Part shown: positions 36,229 through 55,833 of the stretch, in pieces | Layout: the number at the start of each line of letters is the position of its first letter | Position numbering within the stretch: position 1 is the stretch's first letter | Origin: Allolobophora icterica | Lineage: Eukaryota > Annelida > Clitellata > Crassiclitellata > Lumbricidae | Direction of reading: 5' to 3' | NCBI GenBank assembly: GCA_963556255.1 | Contig: OY744610.1 | Location: 9,116,277-9,180,276 of the forward strand | Length of the DNA: 64,000 nucleotides | Made by a program: the position numbers and the translations under genes | Notes under the pieces: model-generated | What the model was told of the DNA's origin: nothing | Databases searched by the model: none | What the model saw: only the letters and a program-made list of their open reading frames with translations

Positions 36229-36407
36229 GTATTAAACAAACTGTTCTAAAAAAAGACACAGATTTATCAAAATACATACATGCATGCGATTATACGTGGA
36301 AAGAAGGCAAATGAACAATAAACTAAAAGCTTAATAATCCTGAAACGTGAGAACGGAATTAGTGGATGTCTTGTCGACACCGTTTTCTATACGGAATTAA
36401 ATGCAAA

Positions 36408-36623
36408 AGTAGATAGGAGATACAGGAACTGGCGCATTCGCTAGGTGTCGTTCTGAAAGCTTAAAAACCGTTACAATGAGTGAATCTGAAACCGGAGTTA
36501 ACGCATTCGCCAGGCGGCGTTCTGAAAGCTTAAAAACCGTTACAAAGAGTGAATCTGAAACACCAACCCGTTGGTGCTATCAAGGGCCTGCCAGAGGGGA
36601 ATGGAATGGTCATTCAGGGTAAA
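36408..36623 (+). repeat. Left terminal inverted repeat of the Polinton, 216 bp
   Basis: Matches 54868-55083 in reverse complement with no mismatch that I can see; similarity ends after CATTCAGGGTAAA. It contains two direct copies (69-bp period, starting near 36434 and 36503) of GCATTCGC...TTCTGAAAGCTTAAAAACCG...GTGAATCTGAAAC. Polinton ends normally start with AG, as here. Confidence 0.97.
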
Positions 36624-41598: not shown

Positions 41599-43419
41599 TT
41601 ACGTGTCTCCAACTTTAAAATATGTGTAGATCTGAAAGTGGGATATTCCAAAAGTAGCTTGTGTTGGGCTGGTGGCCATGACTATCAGCCTTAATTTTTT
41701 GTATGCTCTGGAGGCGGAAAGGTGAGTAGTGAAGGTGAACTCTTGTGCGGAATTAGTCAAAGTGACATTGGAGGTGATGTGCACATAAAATGTATTTTCA
41801 GCGTCGGGTGGAATCCCATAAATCTTCCAGGACGTGATACGTGGTGCAGTAGGACTAGATCCCCCAGCCAGACTAACCTTCCATAATCGCACAGGCGTCG
41901 GGAATTCAATCTGTAACCAAGTCCCACTAACCATAATATCGGCTCTCGATGTGCACGCCGTCTTCCACTCACCTTCGACACCCGAGTTGAATGCCATATA
42001 AGGCGGGTTGGTGGGGATGGATTCGTTGGCTGAGGCAATGAAACCAGTTTCGGAAGAGTCTCTGGACAGCGGTGGAATATGACCTGTATGGTTAAGAAAC
42101 TTGAGGTTATTCACGTACTCTTTTACAGCGGTCTCTTTACTATCTGTATACCTTTTAACCACAACAGCCTGATTGTCGACATATTGTTTATTGGCCACGT
42201 TCAAAGGCTCCGTCGGTATTTTATTTAATTTTGTCATTTTGCCGGTTACGATTCTCGTCACCTGCCCGATACTCGCCGCGTCGGTATTAGTTGTTGAGGC
42301 CCCCGTGTAAAGCCCAGTCACCCTCTGACCGCCCATAGCTAAATTTCCAGTCATTGCGTCGCCAACTTTAAGCACGCAAGCGCTCCTGACCATAGCGTCT
42401 TGTTCTTCGGCGTAAGTTTTTGCAGCTTCGGCTTTCTGGTCCGCGTACCCCCTTGCGGCGGCGGTCTTTTGATCTGTATACAACCTCACGGCCGAATTAA
42501 TCGCGGTGTCCTGATCGACCGCGTACTGTCTAGCAGCAATATGTTGAACATCAACATATTGTTTGTTAACCACGTGCAACGACTCCGTGGGAACTCTATC
42601 GAGGCTCAATAGAGCGCCGGCGACCGCTGTTGACACTTGTTTCCAACTCGCTGCGTCGCTATCAGATCCTGGAATCTCTGTTGGAAGTCCAGTTACTCGG
42701 TGGCCACCCATGACTAAACTTCCAGTCATAACGCTGCCAGATTTTAGCACACACGCGTTCTTGACAATAACATCTTGCTCGTTGACGTAACTTTTTACAA
42801 TAACATCCTTTTCGTCCGCATACTGCCTAACGGAATCTCTCAGCACCTCGTTCTTCTCGTCCGTGTACTGCTTGGCATCGACAAGCTTCTGGTCTGCATG
42901 GTTCTCGGCTGCGGCTGCCTTCTGGTCCGCGTACAGCCTGACTGCAGTGTCCAGCAGAGTGTCCTTATCGTCTGCGTAACGTTTAACGAGACCAGTTGCC
43001 TCGGAGCTTAAGCCGTCTGCATACAACTCAGCTTGGTGCGCCCGCTCTTTCGCGTACTCCGTTATTTGTTTCCAACTCGCAGCGTCGGACTCTCCCACCA
43101 ATTCATCCCAACCCTCGTCTTCACTGTCAGATCCCGGAGTGTCCGTGGGCAAACCAGTCAATTTATGACCGCCCATTTTTAGAATGCCAGACATCGTTCC
43201 ACCGGTGATTTGTAAGTTGTCCTGATCTACGATGTCCGCATAAGCCTTTGTCGCGGCGTCCGTTTCCATCGTCGGCGTTCCCACGTTTGTCAACCGAAAT
43301 CCCCCAGCCGACAGAATTCCCAGCATTGTGTCACCCGCTTTGTGGACGAGCCCAGCGGCGCTTATCTGCCCCCCTCCCACCCCACCTCCACCGTCTCTTC
43401 CAAATTTATCAACCGGCAT
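41599..43419 (-). CDS. Fibre-like protein: phage-tail-type repeats plus discoidin-like tip (606 aa)
   Basis: Four modules of the GDxMxGxLxMGGxxxxGLxxP...DAAxxxxV type start near residues 28, 73, 228 and 352, closely resembling tail-fibre repeats of bacteriophages. Between them are long helical stretches of ADQK, YADEKD and YTDSKE units (about 120-225, 290-345, 410-440), expected to trimerise as coiled coils. A glycine-rich N-terminus (GGGGVGGG) precedes them. Residues about 459-600 form a discoidin (F5/8 type C)-like domain with WLQIEFPTPVRLWKVSL and ITSWKIYGI, a carbohydrate-binding fold. The layout shaft-then-lectin suggests receptor attachment; that role is inferred. It lies between the protease and the beta-rich gene in the late cluster. 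Confidence 0.8.
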   Translation of the reverse strand: MPVDKFGRDGGGGVGGGQISAAGLVHKAGDTMLGILSAGGFRLTNVGTPTMETDAATKAYADIVDQDNLQITGGTMSGILKMGGHKLTGLPTDTPGSDSEDEGWDELVGESDAASWKQITEYAKERAHQAELYADGLSSEATGLVKRYADDKDTLLDTAVRLYADQKAAAAENHADQKLVDAKQYTDEKNEVLRDSVRQYADEKDVIVKSYVNEQDVIVKNACVLKSGSVMTGSLVMGGHRVTGLPTEIPGSDSDAASWKQVSTAVAGALLSLDRVPTESLHVVNKQYVDVQHIAARQYAVDQDTAINSAVRLYTDQKTAAARGYADQKAEAAKTYAEEQDAMVRSACVLKVGDAMTGNLAMGGQRVTGLYTGASTTNTDAASIGQVTRIVTGKMTKLNKIPTEPLNVANKQYVDNQAVVVKRYTDSKETAVKEYVNNLKFLNHTGHIPPLSRDSSETGFIASANESIPTNPPYMAFNSGVEGEWKTACTSRADIMVSGTWLQIEFPTPVRLWKVSLAGGSSPTAPRITSWKIYGIPPDAENTFYVHITSNVTLTNSAQEFTFTTHLSASRAYKKLRLIVMATSPTQATFGISHFQIYTYFKVGDT

Positions 43420-43447
43420 TTTTTATACAAAAAAGGGTGACGGAAGT

Positions 43448-43822
43448 CTAACATAAGTCAAGCACGATATCTTCAAAATTCTTTCCAGCAGCGAGCTCTC
43501 TTAGCACGGTCAGGCAGAGATGACCACATACCACATCATCGGGCCCCTGTAGCTGAAATGTTTGTGTTCTTATGGAACGGTTTAAATATCGAGAAATTTC
43601 GAGAGGCGGATCCAGCCCATAACTGTCAAAATAGACGGCTTTAGGTCCATCTATCCAATAGGCGACCCAGTGAGTACCATCACCAGAACCGGAATCTAAA
43701 TTAACAACTCCACACTCCTTCTCACGAGCCACGGCGGGCAGACCATCTCGCATGAAAACACCGCGGAAATGCGGCAGCGCTCTGGCAACTTTCTCTATGT
43801 CAAAGTTGCTCAGCGGTTTTAG
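43448..43822 (-). CDS. PRO: Adenain-like cysteine protease, probably made by -1 frameshifting
   Basis: The ATG-started frame (43753) gives 101 residues with the adenain-type catalytic set: His28 in GTHWVAYW, Asp43 in YFDSYG, Gln69 and Cys76 in VVCGHLC. The conserved N-terminal part (SNFDIEKVARALPHF) lies upstream of that ATG in the same open frame, which has no start codon. This frame is entered exactly by a -1 slip at A AAA AAC (43822-43828) at the end of the 168-aa gene. Such proteases cleave capsid and core precursors during maturation. Translation from ATG 43753 alone would lack the first strand and helices. An indel in a 7-A run or a non-ATG start are alternatives. Confidence 0.85.
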   Translation of the reverse strand, partial: LKPLSNFDIEKVARALPHFRGVFMRDGLPAVAREKECGVVNLDSGSGDGTHWVAYWIDGPKAVYFDSYGLDPPLEISRYLNRSIRTQTFQLQGPDDVVCGHLCLTVLRELAAGKNFEDIVLDLC

Positions 43823-43828
43823 TTTTTT
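43782..43828 (-). promoter_or_regulatory. Candidate -1 ribosomal frameshift signal
   Basis: Read on the minus strand: slippery heptamer A AAA AAC (43828-43822) in the frame of the upstream gene, then its TAA stop at once (43821-43819) and an 8-nt spacer. A stem follows: CTG-bulged A-GCAACTTT (43813-43802) pairing with AAAGTTGCCAG (43792-43782) around a 9-nt loop, giving 11 base pairs. Heptamer type, spacer length and stem match known eukaryotic -1 frameshift sites such as retroviral gag-pro. Confidence 0.75.
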
Positions 43829-44325
43829 TGTCCGATGTAGAGACCCGATCCTTTACACATTGGGCAACAACCACCACGAGTCTCACGCCCGAGATATAAA
43901 CCAGTCCCGCGGACCTGGGCCTCGAGTTCGCGATTGTGACGCGCCGCCTCCGCCAGTGCAGCGTCGCTGGCCTGTTTGCTCTGCACAGCCTTTACTACCC
44001 CAGCGGTCCCACCAGCCACGGCACCCGCCGCGGATAACCCACCAAAAAGCAGCGGGAGGAGAGCCAGTAGTGGAAGAAATCCACCCATTTTAGTCATCTT
44101 TTTCAATTGCGTTTTGGTGAATCTCAGCTCCATGCCAACGCCTTCCGAAATCTTCTTCACGATTCGGGCGGCTTGAACTTTTGTCAGCGCGAGCTTGTCG
44201 TCTCCGCGAAGCTGGCCATGAGTGAGCCGGATCGTGGCGCCAGTGCCGGCACGCGCAGCTCTAGCCAATGTTTGCTTTTGCCCTTTGGTCAGCGAAAGGC
44301 CGAACGCAACGTATTCAGTTTTCAT
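43819..44325 (-). CDS. Glycine-rich basic core-like protein (168 aa)
   Basis: Starts MKTEYVAFGLSLTKGQ. Its basic N-terminal half includes two imperfect repeats of TKxQ(A/K) motifs with GATIRLTHGQL and GMELRFTKTQL. A hydrophobic glycine/alanine segment follows at about 83-110 (GFLPLLALLPLLFGGLSAAG), then a helix, then a cysteine-pair tail with GLYLGRE/GLYIGQ repeats. Small basic proteins with such a hydrophobic stretch recur beside the protease in Polintons, and adenovirus core/pX-type proteins are the usual comparison. DNA condensation or membrane interaction is inference. It is the upstream partner of the putative frameshift, so a fraction would be made as a fusion to the protease. Confidence 0.7.
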   Translation of the reverse strand: MKTEYVAFGLSLTKGQKQTLARAARAGTGATIRLTHGQLRGDDKLALTKVQAARIVKKISEGVGMELRFTKTQLKKMTKMGGFLPLLALLPLLFGGLSAAGAVAGGTAGVVKAVQSKQASDAALAEAARHNRELEAQVRGTGLYLGRETRGGCCPMCKGSGLYIGQKN

Positions 44326-44381: not shown

Positions 44382-45677
44382 CTAGTAGACGACGTTGAAT
44401 TTGCTGCCATCCGATTCAAAGCTCAGGAGTCGGTCGCTGATCAGGACGGCATATGCTGTCGTATTATTTGGTACCCCTTCGTTAAAGTCCACCTTGATTT
44501 GTATGTCCTGTACAGAGGTTTTAAGTCGTTCGGATTGCCTGCGCACGTCCAGGACGAAGATCGGAAACAAATCTACAAATTCGATTGGTGTCAATTGGCA
44601 TGACGATTCACGCGCGTCTATACCGCAATATTCCTCCTTGAAGTCACGTAGGGCCTTGTAAGCGCGAGAAGTTGTCCTCTTCGTGAAGTCGAGATTCATG
44701 TCAACCACTGGGTAGCGATCGGTGTTGAGCAAAGCGAATATGTTGCGAACCTGTGCATGGTCAAACAGTGCCGGATTCTGGCCTTGATGTGCATTCTTTC
44801 CAGTCTGAAAAGCAACAAGAATCCAGCGTGGCTTTTCCGTGCCCGACTTAACGCTCAAACGCCAGGAAAAAGTCGTCGCTCGTGGCACCGCAATGTTGTC
44901 GCATTGCATGGCGCGGAATGCTACAGGTACCTTAACCTTGGCTTCAATCTGCTTCATAAGCATGCTTTTATACTCCAAAGCGGGTATTATATGCGGCATG
45001 AACCAGGAGAGTTTAGTCAGCGCGATCTGGCCATTGGCCGCAGCGGCTTCCTTGAAGATCGCGTCTGCATCCCCCTGCCGGCTCAGCAGTAAAGAGTGTT
45101 TGATCCCGTATACGACCTTGTGATAATCATCGCAAAAACCGAATAGATGTCTTAAGGGAACGATGAATGAAAACGTTCCAATAGGGACGGGTTTTCCAAT
45201 GATCATCAGTCGACGGGCCTCGAAGCCGATATTCGCAGCCGCCGCCGCCGCGGTCGTGTCCTTCTGCCAACACATGTTTAAACCTTCGCCTTTGGAAAAA
45301 TCATCGCCGTAAACCAGCATGCCTTTCATCGTCGTGGCTTGCCCAGGTGACATAACATTCTCTATCTCGGTATTGTTAGCCAGGTATCGAATTTGAGAAA
45401 ACATGTACGGGATGGCGTTGTTGATGAATGACACTAACGAGTCTGCGATGTAAGCTGCGCCTGTTGTGGTAAGCCTGCCCTCCACAAGAAGGTAGCTCTT
45501 GGAAGGCTGTGTGAAAATGTCTTGGTTCTGGATGTCTATCTGTATGGCCTGGCCGTTGTTAATAGCCGCAGGGTTTTGTGATTCATACTCGCGGTATTCA
45601 AACGATTCGATGCTATTATCATCGGGTACCGCCGAAGCGATGTCCAACATTTCACTCGGCACGTCAAATGCCGCCAT
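44382..45677 (-). CDS. Double-jelly-roll-like major capsid protein (431 aa)
   Basis: The start is MAAFDVPSEMLDIASAVPDD, then a beta-rich first half with NNAIPYMFSQIRYLANNTEIE and GQATTMKGML, and GTFSFIVPLRHLFGFCDDY near the centre. The second half repeats a strand-rich layout and includes AVPRATTFSWRL and RYPVVDMNLDF. This pattern (IxYxxNxxEIE, ATTxKG, IPLxHLFGF) is that of the double-jelly-roll-like family seen in animal Polinton-type elements and insect/cnidarian genomes. It would build the hexameric capsomers. The length is shorter than many hexon-type proteins, and the assignment rests on sequence pattern, not structure. No frame damage. The largest structural gene, centrally placed in the late cluster. 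Confidence 0.7.
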   Translation of the reverse strand: MAAFDVPSEMLDIASAVPDDNSIESFEYREYESQNPAAINNGQAIQIDIQNQDIFTQPSKSYLLVEGRLTTTGAAYIADSLVSFINNAIPYMFSQIRYLANNTEIENVMSPGQATTMKGMLVYGDDFSKGEGLNMCWQKDTTAAAAAANIGFEARRLMIIGKPVPIGTFSFIVPLRHLFGFCDDYHKVVYGIKHSLLLSRQGDADAIFKEAAAANGQIALTKLSWFMPHIIPALEYKSMLMKQIEAKVKVPVAFRAMQCDNIAVPRATTFSWRLSVKSGTEKPRWILVAFQTGKNAHQGQNPALFDHAQVRNIFALLNTDRYPVVDMNLDFTKRTTSRAYKALRDFKEEYCGIDARESSCQLTPIEFVDLFPIFVLDVRRQSERLKTSVQDIQIKVDFNEGVPNNTTAYAVLISDRLLSFESDGSKFNVVY

Positions 45678-48908: not shown

Positions 48909-48946
48909 ATAGAGACAACGAGTTATGATTGTATTCAACGAAAACA
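48909..48946. promoter_or_regulatory. 38-bp divergent intergenic gap
   Basis: The only sequence between the start codons of the ATPase (minus) and the zinc-ribbon/PLA2 gene (plus). No TATA box is obvious; promoters probably overlap the coding 5' ends. Confidence 0.35.
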
Positions 48947-49525
48947 ATGTATTGCCTACGATGTAAGAAACATACTGAGACTTCAAATGAAACAATTGTC
49001 GAGTTACGAAACGGTCGGCCAGCCAAGAAGGGAACCTGTGCCGTCTGCGGTGCAAAGAAGAGCCAAATTTTGCCTTCTAAAGCGCGGAAGCATAAGTCTC
49101 GTGAGACTTATGGAGGCTCTCTACTGAATAGGGCCCTCAACGCTCTTCCTCTGCCTGAGATGCATATGAGCCTTCCATCCGGTATGTCTTCGGAAGATAA
49201 TCCGGGAGGTTCTTTTCAGAATACAGGAAAGTACTCTTACTGTGGACCATTCACAAAACTCGATAAACGGCTGTCACAGCGCTATCACGGTGTTAATCAG
49301 CTCGACCGTGCGTGCCTCCACCATGATGTGGCTTACGCAGTTCATAAAGATACCCCAGGGCGTAACCACGCAGATGACATCCTCGCTGCAGCCGCGTCGA
49401 AGATCGCACTCACCGATGAAACTCCAGATTATGAGAAGAAGGATGCCCGGCTTGTATCGGCCATTATGTCAGCAAAGTCCAGGCTGGGGATGGGCGTCAG
49501 AACGAAGGGCCAGCGAAAACGCTAA
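48947..49525 (+). CDS. Zinc ribbon plus phospholipase A2-like protein (192 aa)
   Basis: The N-terminus (MYCLRCKKHTETSN ... GTCAVCG) holds four cysteines as CxxC...CxxC, a small zinc ribbon frequent in Polinton/adintovirus-like proteins (DUF5679-like). The C-terminal half has YCGPFTKLDKRL (calcium loop type) and LDRACLHHDVAY, with the catalytic His-Asp pair of parvovirus VP1-type phospholipase A2, then HADDIL. Such enzymes open endosomal membranes during parvovirus entry; an entry role here is inferred. The tail RTKGQRKR is basic. ATG 48947 is chosen because the longer frame begins at TTG. The stop is shared within TAATG with the next frame. Confidence 0.85.
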   Translation: MYCLRCKKHTETSNETIVELRNGRPAKKGTCAVCGAKKSQILPSKARKHKSRETYGGSLLNRALNALPLPEMHMSLPSGMSSEDNPGGSFQNTGKYSYCGPFTKLDKRLSQRYHGVNQLDRACLHHDVAYAVHKDTPGRNHADDILAAAASKIALTDETPDYEKKDARLVSAIMSAKSRLGMGVRTKGQRKR

Positions 49526-54867: not shown

Positions 54868-55083
54868 TTTACCCTGAATGACCATTCCATTCCCCTCTGG
54901 CAGGCCCTTGATAGCACCAACGGGTTGGTGTTTCAGATTCACTCTTTGTAACGGTTTTTAAGCTTTCAGAACGCCGCCTGGCGAATGCGTTAACTCCGGT
55001 TTCAGATTCACTCATTGTAACGGTTTTTAAGCTTTCAGAACGACACCTAGCGAATGCGCCAGTTCCTGTATCTCCTATCTACT
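54868..55083 (-). repeat. Right terminal inverted repeat of the Polinton, 216 bp
   Basis: Reverse complement of 36408-36623 with no difference found by eye. It ends CTATCTACT followed by the target duplication GCAAA and copy B host sequence. Confidence 0.97.
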
Positions 55084-55088
55084 GCAAA

Positions 55089-55833
55089 TTATGCTAAAAC
55101 TACTAACTAGCAGGGCATACTTTAACCGTATAACTAGTGGGACAAATGTCCCAGTAGTCTTAGGATTTGTCCCAGTAGTTAGGCTGATTTGTCCCAGGTA
55201 ATGTATGTTGAAACTGTAACTAGTGGGACAAAAATGTTGGAGGAGTTTTAAGAGTTGTCCCAGCAGTGAAATGATTTAATAGAAAAATGCATTGTTGTTA
55301 CTGAAGAAAGTTATGAAAATTCCCAAAAAAGGTCATAAACTTTTTGAGGAGATGATTTCATAAAAAAGGTCATCAACTTTTTGAGGAGATGATGTTTTGA
55401 GGAGATGATTTCCTAAAAAGTCGTAAACTTTTTTGAGAGACGAATTCCCAAGAAAAGGTCATCAGATTTTTCCAGAGACGAGTTCCCAATAGAGGTCATC
55501 ATAAACCCACGGCCGACTTTTTCCAAGTAGTCTAAATCTCTTAAAATATGCACTGCTAACCAGTCTAACTGTATTTGTAAATAGACCATGGCAAAATCAA
55601 GTTGAGCAACAGTGCATCAAATCTAATCTGGCATTCGATTGTCACATAAAGTGAAATTTTTTAATTTGAAATCCTAATTCATGGGAGAATCAAGGTTTAG
55701 ATTCAATTCTACATTAGACAATTCTGAAAATGAAGTAATAAATTGAATCAAATATTGTATGATTCACATAAACAAAAGACCTCCTGTTATAATATTGCAT
55801 TGATGACAACTTACCGTATAAACTTGCACTTAA

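Follow-up and report, generated by a model that had tools for sequence, protein, structure and literature searches.

Organization of the element and its genomic setting

The window analyzed here is a stretch of 64,000 nucleotides from Allolobophora icterica (contig OY744610.1, positions 9,116,277 to 9,180,276 of the forward strand), and all coordinates given below are positions in this window. It contains a Polinton flanked by terminal inverted repeats (TIRs), in which a pX-like gene (hereafter referred to as PX) overlaps an adenain-like protease gene at a candidate frameshift site. The features considered are as follows:

36408..36623, plus strand: left TIR, 216 bp, identical to the right TIR
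54868..55083, minus strand: right TIR, 216 bp
44382..45677, minus strand: major capsid protein with a double jelly roll (DJR; Pfam PF21738, 6.3e-55), directly upstream of PX
43819..44325, minus strand: PX, 168 aa, adenovirus pX/mu-like, ending in -QKN*
43822..43828, minus strand: slippery heptamer A AAA AAC, in the PX frame (CAA AAA AAC TAA)
43782..43813, minus strand: stem-loop 8 nt downstream of the heptamer (3+8 bp, one bulge), a candidate stimulator that is not conserved
43448..43828, minus strand: adenain-like cysteine protease read in the -1 frame, extending from the slip site (KKLKPLSNFDIEK...) as far as its stop
43754..43828, minus strand: protease frame before its first ATG, with the conserved PLSNFDIE..FRGVF and a bias among variants
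43751..43753, minus strand: first ATG of the protease frame, initiation at which would give an N-terminally truncated protease

The gene content is that of a Polinton/Maverick, with PolB (DNA_pol_B_2), an rve integrase, an A32-type packaging ATPase (Pox_A32) and the DJR-like capsid recognized by Pfam, and the protease recognized by a profile. On the minus strand, the genes follow the order capsid, PX, protease and a long repetitive ORF. The sequence GCAAA flanks the element on each side and occurs a single time in an empty paralogous site, the TIRs being accompanied by a short target-site duplication, of 5 bp here, the usual length in Polintons being 6 bp. The empty site lies inside a duplicated flank (1496-1530, versus 36396-36407 and 55084-55097), which indicates that the insertion probably postdates the duplication. 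The host genome (1.12 Gb) yielded 1662 first-look candidates for the protease and 1559 for PX, with 150 scored for each; the very large number of near-identical Polintons, belonging to at least two clades, suggests a recent burst.

The PX gene and the candidate slip site at its end

PX has a hydrophobic stretch (Gly/Leu) as well as a CCPMC motif close to its C-terminus. No Pfam match was obtained for the window PX at 1e-3, and it was not recovered as a member of Adeno_PX (PF05829). One of its relatives, P0149, does match this family (2e-8, 34.4 bits against a cut-off of 25), and the relatives P0148, P0131 and P0146 score below this cut-off. On the basis of its sequence, the window PX is best described as pX-like, and not as an Adeno_PX family member. 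Twelve of the 32 PX relatives end in KN and several others are cut short, with ends other than KN in P0122, P0127, P0133 and P0135. In the C-terminal part of PX (ORF 43822-44325), CCPMC is flanked by two GLYLG-like motifs, an arrangement present in many close relatives and absent from P0146-P0149. An adenain cleavage motif was absent from the last 70 residues of the window PX and present in the tails of 14 of 23 long PX sequences, against a mean of 8.1 and a maximum of 14 after shuffling, and no claim is made on this point.

The earlier note on this DNA placed A AAA AAC in the upstream frame directly before its stop, and proposed that a -1 slip at this site enters the protease frame exactly; both statements were confirmed on the minus strand. 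The heptamer has the form X XXY YYZ in the PX frame and is followed immediately by the PX stop TAA (43821-43819). The stop-to-stop frame of the protease (43852-43448) is -1 relative to PX, overlaps it by 34 nt and has no start of its own. A -1 slip on the heptamer reads on as KKLKPLSNFDIEKVARALPHFRGVFM, the M of which (43753) corresponds to the first ATG of the protease frame. Among 14 ORFs scanned, A AAA AAC was found in frame once, and the -1 run that it opens there was the longest detected (126 aa). In random 11-codon tails with the composition of PX, a canonical heptamer is expected in 2.2% of draws; with the real peptide end (...GQKN*) fixed, codon choice alone yields A AAA AAC in 12%. 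Because of this latter value, the single copy in the window constitutes weak evidence, and the case is carried by conservation.

The protease and the segment preceding its first ATG

A profile built from 44 relatives matched adenain (1avp) with an E value of 1.6e-6, relating the protease to the adenain (C5) family, and no Pfam match was obtained at 1e-3 with the single window protease. The first ATG of the frame sits within the conserved FRGVFM motif. The proposal that the conserved N-terminal segment lies upstream of this ATG, with no ATG start of its own, therefore held for the window.

The variants in this segment were analyzed over a stretch of 60 nt beginning at the PX stop. Fifteen of the 24 distinct variants were synonymous in the protease frame, versus 29% expected (p=0.00065), as were 10 of the 14 variants present in at least two haplotypes (p=0.0012). 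No synonymous excess was detected over the same 60 nt in the PX frame (p=0.66) or in the third frame (p=0.97). This bias, confined to the protease frame, makes it very likely that the segment before the ATG is translated in that frame.

A second Polinton clade in the host genome, found with P0042, was read in 10 copies. In nine of these copies, a stop is followed by an ATG located 16-19 codons before PLTN, PLSN or ALSN; in the remaining copy (L094), no M was found before the segment. The presence of an ATG ahead of the segment in this clade indicates that the corresponding pre-ATG segment of the window is part of the normal protease. By eye, the frame upstream of the protease in seven of the 10 copies looks like the end of PolB (GIHTLAYGHYSL).

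Conservation of the junction within the host genome

We surveyed 103 distinct copies from 107 loci of the same genome, four loci being repeats of a copy. A copy was considered intact if PX was open to KN*, the A-run was followed by C and the protease frame was open. The full arrangement was intact in 92 of the 103 copies, comprising all 57 top-ranked distinct loci and 35 of 46 copies hand-picked across open-frame classes, a sample that is not fully neutral. Dead copies are under-represented in these counts, because the survey was seeded by matches to the protease and PX. The PX ends of the intact copies were GLYIGQKN (75 copies), LYYIGQKN (11), GLYMGQKN (three) and others (three).

Runs of six or eight As had been singled out in advance as evidence against the site. 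The window and 94 of the 103 copies have a run of exactly seven As and then C, and the run is followed by C in 101 of the 103; few copies have A6 or A8. In L107, the run is A10, a +3 change that amounts to one codon and keeps all frames, and this copy was counted as intact. The 11 departing copies have A8 (three copies), A6, A9, a T within the run, AAG or AAA replacing AAC, a stop in PX (L070) or a shifted upstream PX frame (L071 and L075), and the protease frame is still open in most of them. In the A8 copies (L064, L085 and L086), PX and the protease form one open frame of more than 300 codons; two of these copies are near-identical in sequence, so the fusion may itself have been propagated.

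The downstream stem

The stem described in the earlier note, of 11 bp with one bulge and beginning 8 nt downstream, is present in the window, and it is here that the proposal failed with respect to conservation. In the window copy, the 40 nt after the heptamer fold at -11.5 kcal/mol (z=-4.6); the same 40 nt of the commoner sequence variant give a z of -2.5. The 60-nt segment starting at the heptamer (GGAC...) had the lowest z (-2.67, 60 shuffles) among 38 segments spanning 1.2 kb, and folding 91 nt of the window copy gave an ordinary value (z=-1.04). All 11 pairs are kept in 17 of the 103 copies, ten in four, nine in 72, eight in two, seven in three and six in five, and five copies keep only four of the eight upper stem pairs. 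No compensatory change was found at any pair across the 103 copies; a further comparison used another register for the lower stem pairs. The stem was thus rejected as a conserved element. Its arms fall on the SNF and KVA codons; the residues there are mostly KAA or RAA-like in close relatives. A weaker stem-loop persists in most copies and might act as a downstream stimulator.

Relatives outside the host genome

The junction was also found in L031, a 19.4-kb IMG/VR contig, the protease of which is 40% identical to that of the window over 109 aligned residues. L031 codes for Prim-Pol, helicase-like domains and an A32 ATPase, on which grounds it was taken to be a Polinton-like virus rather than a Polinton. 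Its upstream gene ends in ACT AAA AAA AAA AAC CCA GAG TTT TAA. The heptamer A AAA AAC is again in the upstream frame, with the protease in a -1 overlap and no ATG before FRGVFM, and the protease-frame stop is formed with the first two As of the A-run; the length of this run, 11 As, comes from one contig alone. The upstream gene was aligned with PX by hhalign with a probability of 67% and a single-pair E value of 5e-5, versus 4.7 with plain BLAST, and on this sequence evidence it is a probable PX relative. Scans of IMG/VR for more viral contigs returned only the contig behind L031, L062, L063 and L091, and none was obtained from a scan of genome contigs or from phage records.

Among the 120 protein relatives of the protease listed, 15 have KK shortly before the conserved protease start (P0001-P0007, P0009, P0010, P0012-P0014, P0017, P0021 and P0039), and 13 are annotated from the MRD methionine. 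The earlier note considered that an in-frame ATG for the protease N-terminus in related elements would speak against frameshifting. Twelve of the 15 KK-type relatives, which are metagenomic, are indeed annotated with a start at an in-frame M within the overlap, the position of this M varying between them; no such M is present in the window or in L031.

We used a joint codon test, in which a PX end and a protease start were fitted to a single DNA sequence. The pairs P0128 (PX)/P0001 (protease) and P0124/P0005 each fit one DNA, with 10 of 10 upstream residues accommodated in the -1 overlap, whereas the maximum in shuffles (60 per pair) was 4 of 10 residues; with this fit, the codon table forces A AAA AAY. 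The contigs of one PX/protease pair are of equal size (1356), suggesting that they are the same contig. Over the 17 relatives tested, P0001 and P0005 were clearly above shuffles, P0007 and P0010 slightly so, and 13 were not, the true PX partner not being known for these 13. P0012, with KKV, points to A AAA AAG. The expectation that the heptamer would be conserved among relatives was borne out by the 92 intact copies, L031 and the two metagenomic pairs inferred from this test. A tree of 97 proteases contained four changes between the labels "KK" and "own M" (P0016 being labeled KK despite an M directly before KK, and P0101 and P0110, with KKL further upstream, being labeled own M). This tree is based on few columns and places L031 on a long branch, and no conclusion on the origin of the arrangement was drawn from it.

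Proposed mechanism and alternative explanations

Programmed -1 frameshifting probably yields PX together with a minor PX-protease fusion, as judged from the sequence comparisons above. PX and the protease would form one translational unit, in which most ribosomes would end PX at the TAA adjoining A AAA AAC. A smaller share, holding the AAA codon in the P site and AAC in the A site, would slip back by one base, re-pair on AAA AAA and continue in the protease frame to give the fusion. The protease would thus be sub-stoichiometric and joined to a pX-like virion or core protein, and the PX part would bring it into the assembling particle at a low dose, for later release by its own cleavage. We infer the slippage itself, together with its rate and the packaging and release of the protease; the fixed core:protease ratio and the packaging as a fusion envisaged in the earlier note would likewise be consequences of such a switch. 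Of the gag-pro type switch as originally proposed, the heptamer, the frame relationship and the start-less N-terminus stand, and the coding constraint and the arrangement in L031 have been added in its favor, whereas the conserved stem has been lost.

Several other explanations could account for a protease frame with no start. Transcriptional slippage, in which the polymerase lengthens or shortens the run by one A such that some mRNAs carry PX and the protease in frame, would suit a site consisting of an A-run (A7 in the window, A10 in L107 and A11 in L031), and the genomic A8 copies show that one added A fuses the frames. We nevertheless consider it unlikely: A7 is short for polymerase slippage, and the C after the run and the KN* end recurrent in PX relatives disfavor this explanation, because only ribosomal slippage on A AAA AAC requires that base. 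The protease might instead be started independently of PX, either within the PX overlap, from an internal or non-AUG start, or at the ATG at 43753, where reinitiation would give a shorter active protease. The methionines within the overlap of the 12 KK-type relatives and the 13 relatives annotated from MRD are consistent with such a start, for which a CTG is available at 43813. This CTG is replaced by CTT or TTG in other copies, the window frame has no ATG before 43753, and five in-frame PX ATGs, including the PX start, lie upstream; the segment before the ATG is, moreover, under coding constraint and is kept behind an ATG of its own in the second clade. We therefore regard independent initiation as quite improbable.

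Splicing of the mRNA, joining a start codon to the protease frame, is very improbable. Introns are possible, given that Polintons are expressed in animal nuclei, and two AG dinucleotides occur within the last 80 nt of PX. However, synonymous variation is seen in the P and L codons that precede the first downstream AG in the window copy, implying that the acceptor would need to be located before the A-run, a position that would leave the constant heptamer and KN* end without a reason. The frame break could also be a mutation in a dead copy or an assembly error, and broken frames do exist in 11 of the 103 copies, but the occurrence of the same break in the other 92, on many contigs, among copies with several different PX ends, and also in a distinct virus contig, argues strongly against this possibility, which we consider extremely improbable.

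Relationship to known systems

The heptamer A AAA AAC is also used at retroviral gag-pro sites. The retroviral protease is an aspartic enzyme, versus a cysteine (adenain) protease here. The arrangement nevertheless resembles gag-pro of beta- and deltaretroviruses in having a -1 protease after a virion-core gene and a heptamer before the upstream stop, and the slippery sequence listed for five astroviruses is the same heptamer (PMC3835772). It differs in that it is found in a self-synthesizing dsDNA element, with a pX-like protein in place of Gag and no conserved stem-loop found. Gag-pro-like -1 frameshifting is a known kind of event; what is new is its setting, together with the conserved PX junction.

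The closest precedent concerns adintoviruses, for which a 2024 preprint mentions possible Penton and potential Hexon-Adenain isoforms generated by -1 frameshifting (PMC11071296). The likeness extends to related viruses, the same protease family, a -1 slip toward the end of a virion gene lying upstream and a proposal based on sequence. The upstream gene in adintoviruses is Hexon or Penton, whereas PX lies between the capsid and the protease in the Polinton; in the available text of the preprint, the proposal takes up one sentence, without a conservation test (PMC11071296). A PX-protease frameshift was not found in the literature searched. The suggestion that a switch of this type had not been described for Polintons thus stands for the PX-protease case and is qualified by the adintovirus Hexon-adenain mention.

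Activation of the adenovirus protease involves DNA and a peptide derived from a virion precursor (pVIc) (PMC4246237, PMC4740752). As in adenovirus (PMC4246237), the protease considered here would be joined to a piece of a virion-core precursor; the adenovirus partner is a cleaved 11-residue peptide joined by a disulfide, whereas the candidate N-terminal fusion of the Polinton would be made in translation. Tentatively, an old, recurrent and conserved pX-protease -1 frameshift might dose and package the maturation protease in Polintons and Polinton-like viruses, as a DNA-virus counterpart of Gag-Pro. The PX tail might then serve as a built-in tether or cofactor, comparable to the pVI peptide in adenovirus, and an ATG of its own might have been gained where the protease left PX.

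According to the available text of one source, Polinton virions are still argued for mainly from capsid genes, and viral particles have not been observed (PMC8097293). A conserved switch setting the amount of protease and tying it to a core protein would be a detail that only a working virion needs, and it would bring gag-pro logic to the group of eukaryotic DNA viruses including the relatives of adenovirus. Entry into the protease by slippage, before the ATG, would also explain the truncated protease reported by gene finders (P0153 for L031).

Other ORFs

Two further ORFs were noted. The long ORF at 41599-43422 of the Polinton and an ORF of L031 (9164-11692) are composed of repeated units ending in AA..YVD. 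This repeat ORF adjoins the protease or the ATPase in the Polinton and the Polinton-like virus alike, and looks like a fiber or spike protein. An ORF on the plus strand (48929-49525) contains the motif CGPFTKLDKRL..LDRACLHHDVAY, which we take to resemble the phospholipase A2 of parvovirus capsid proteins.
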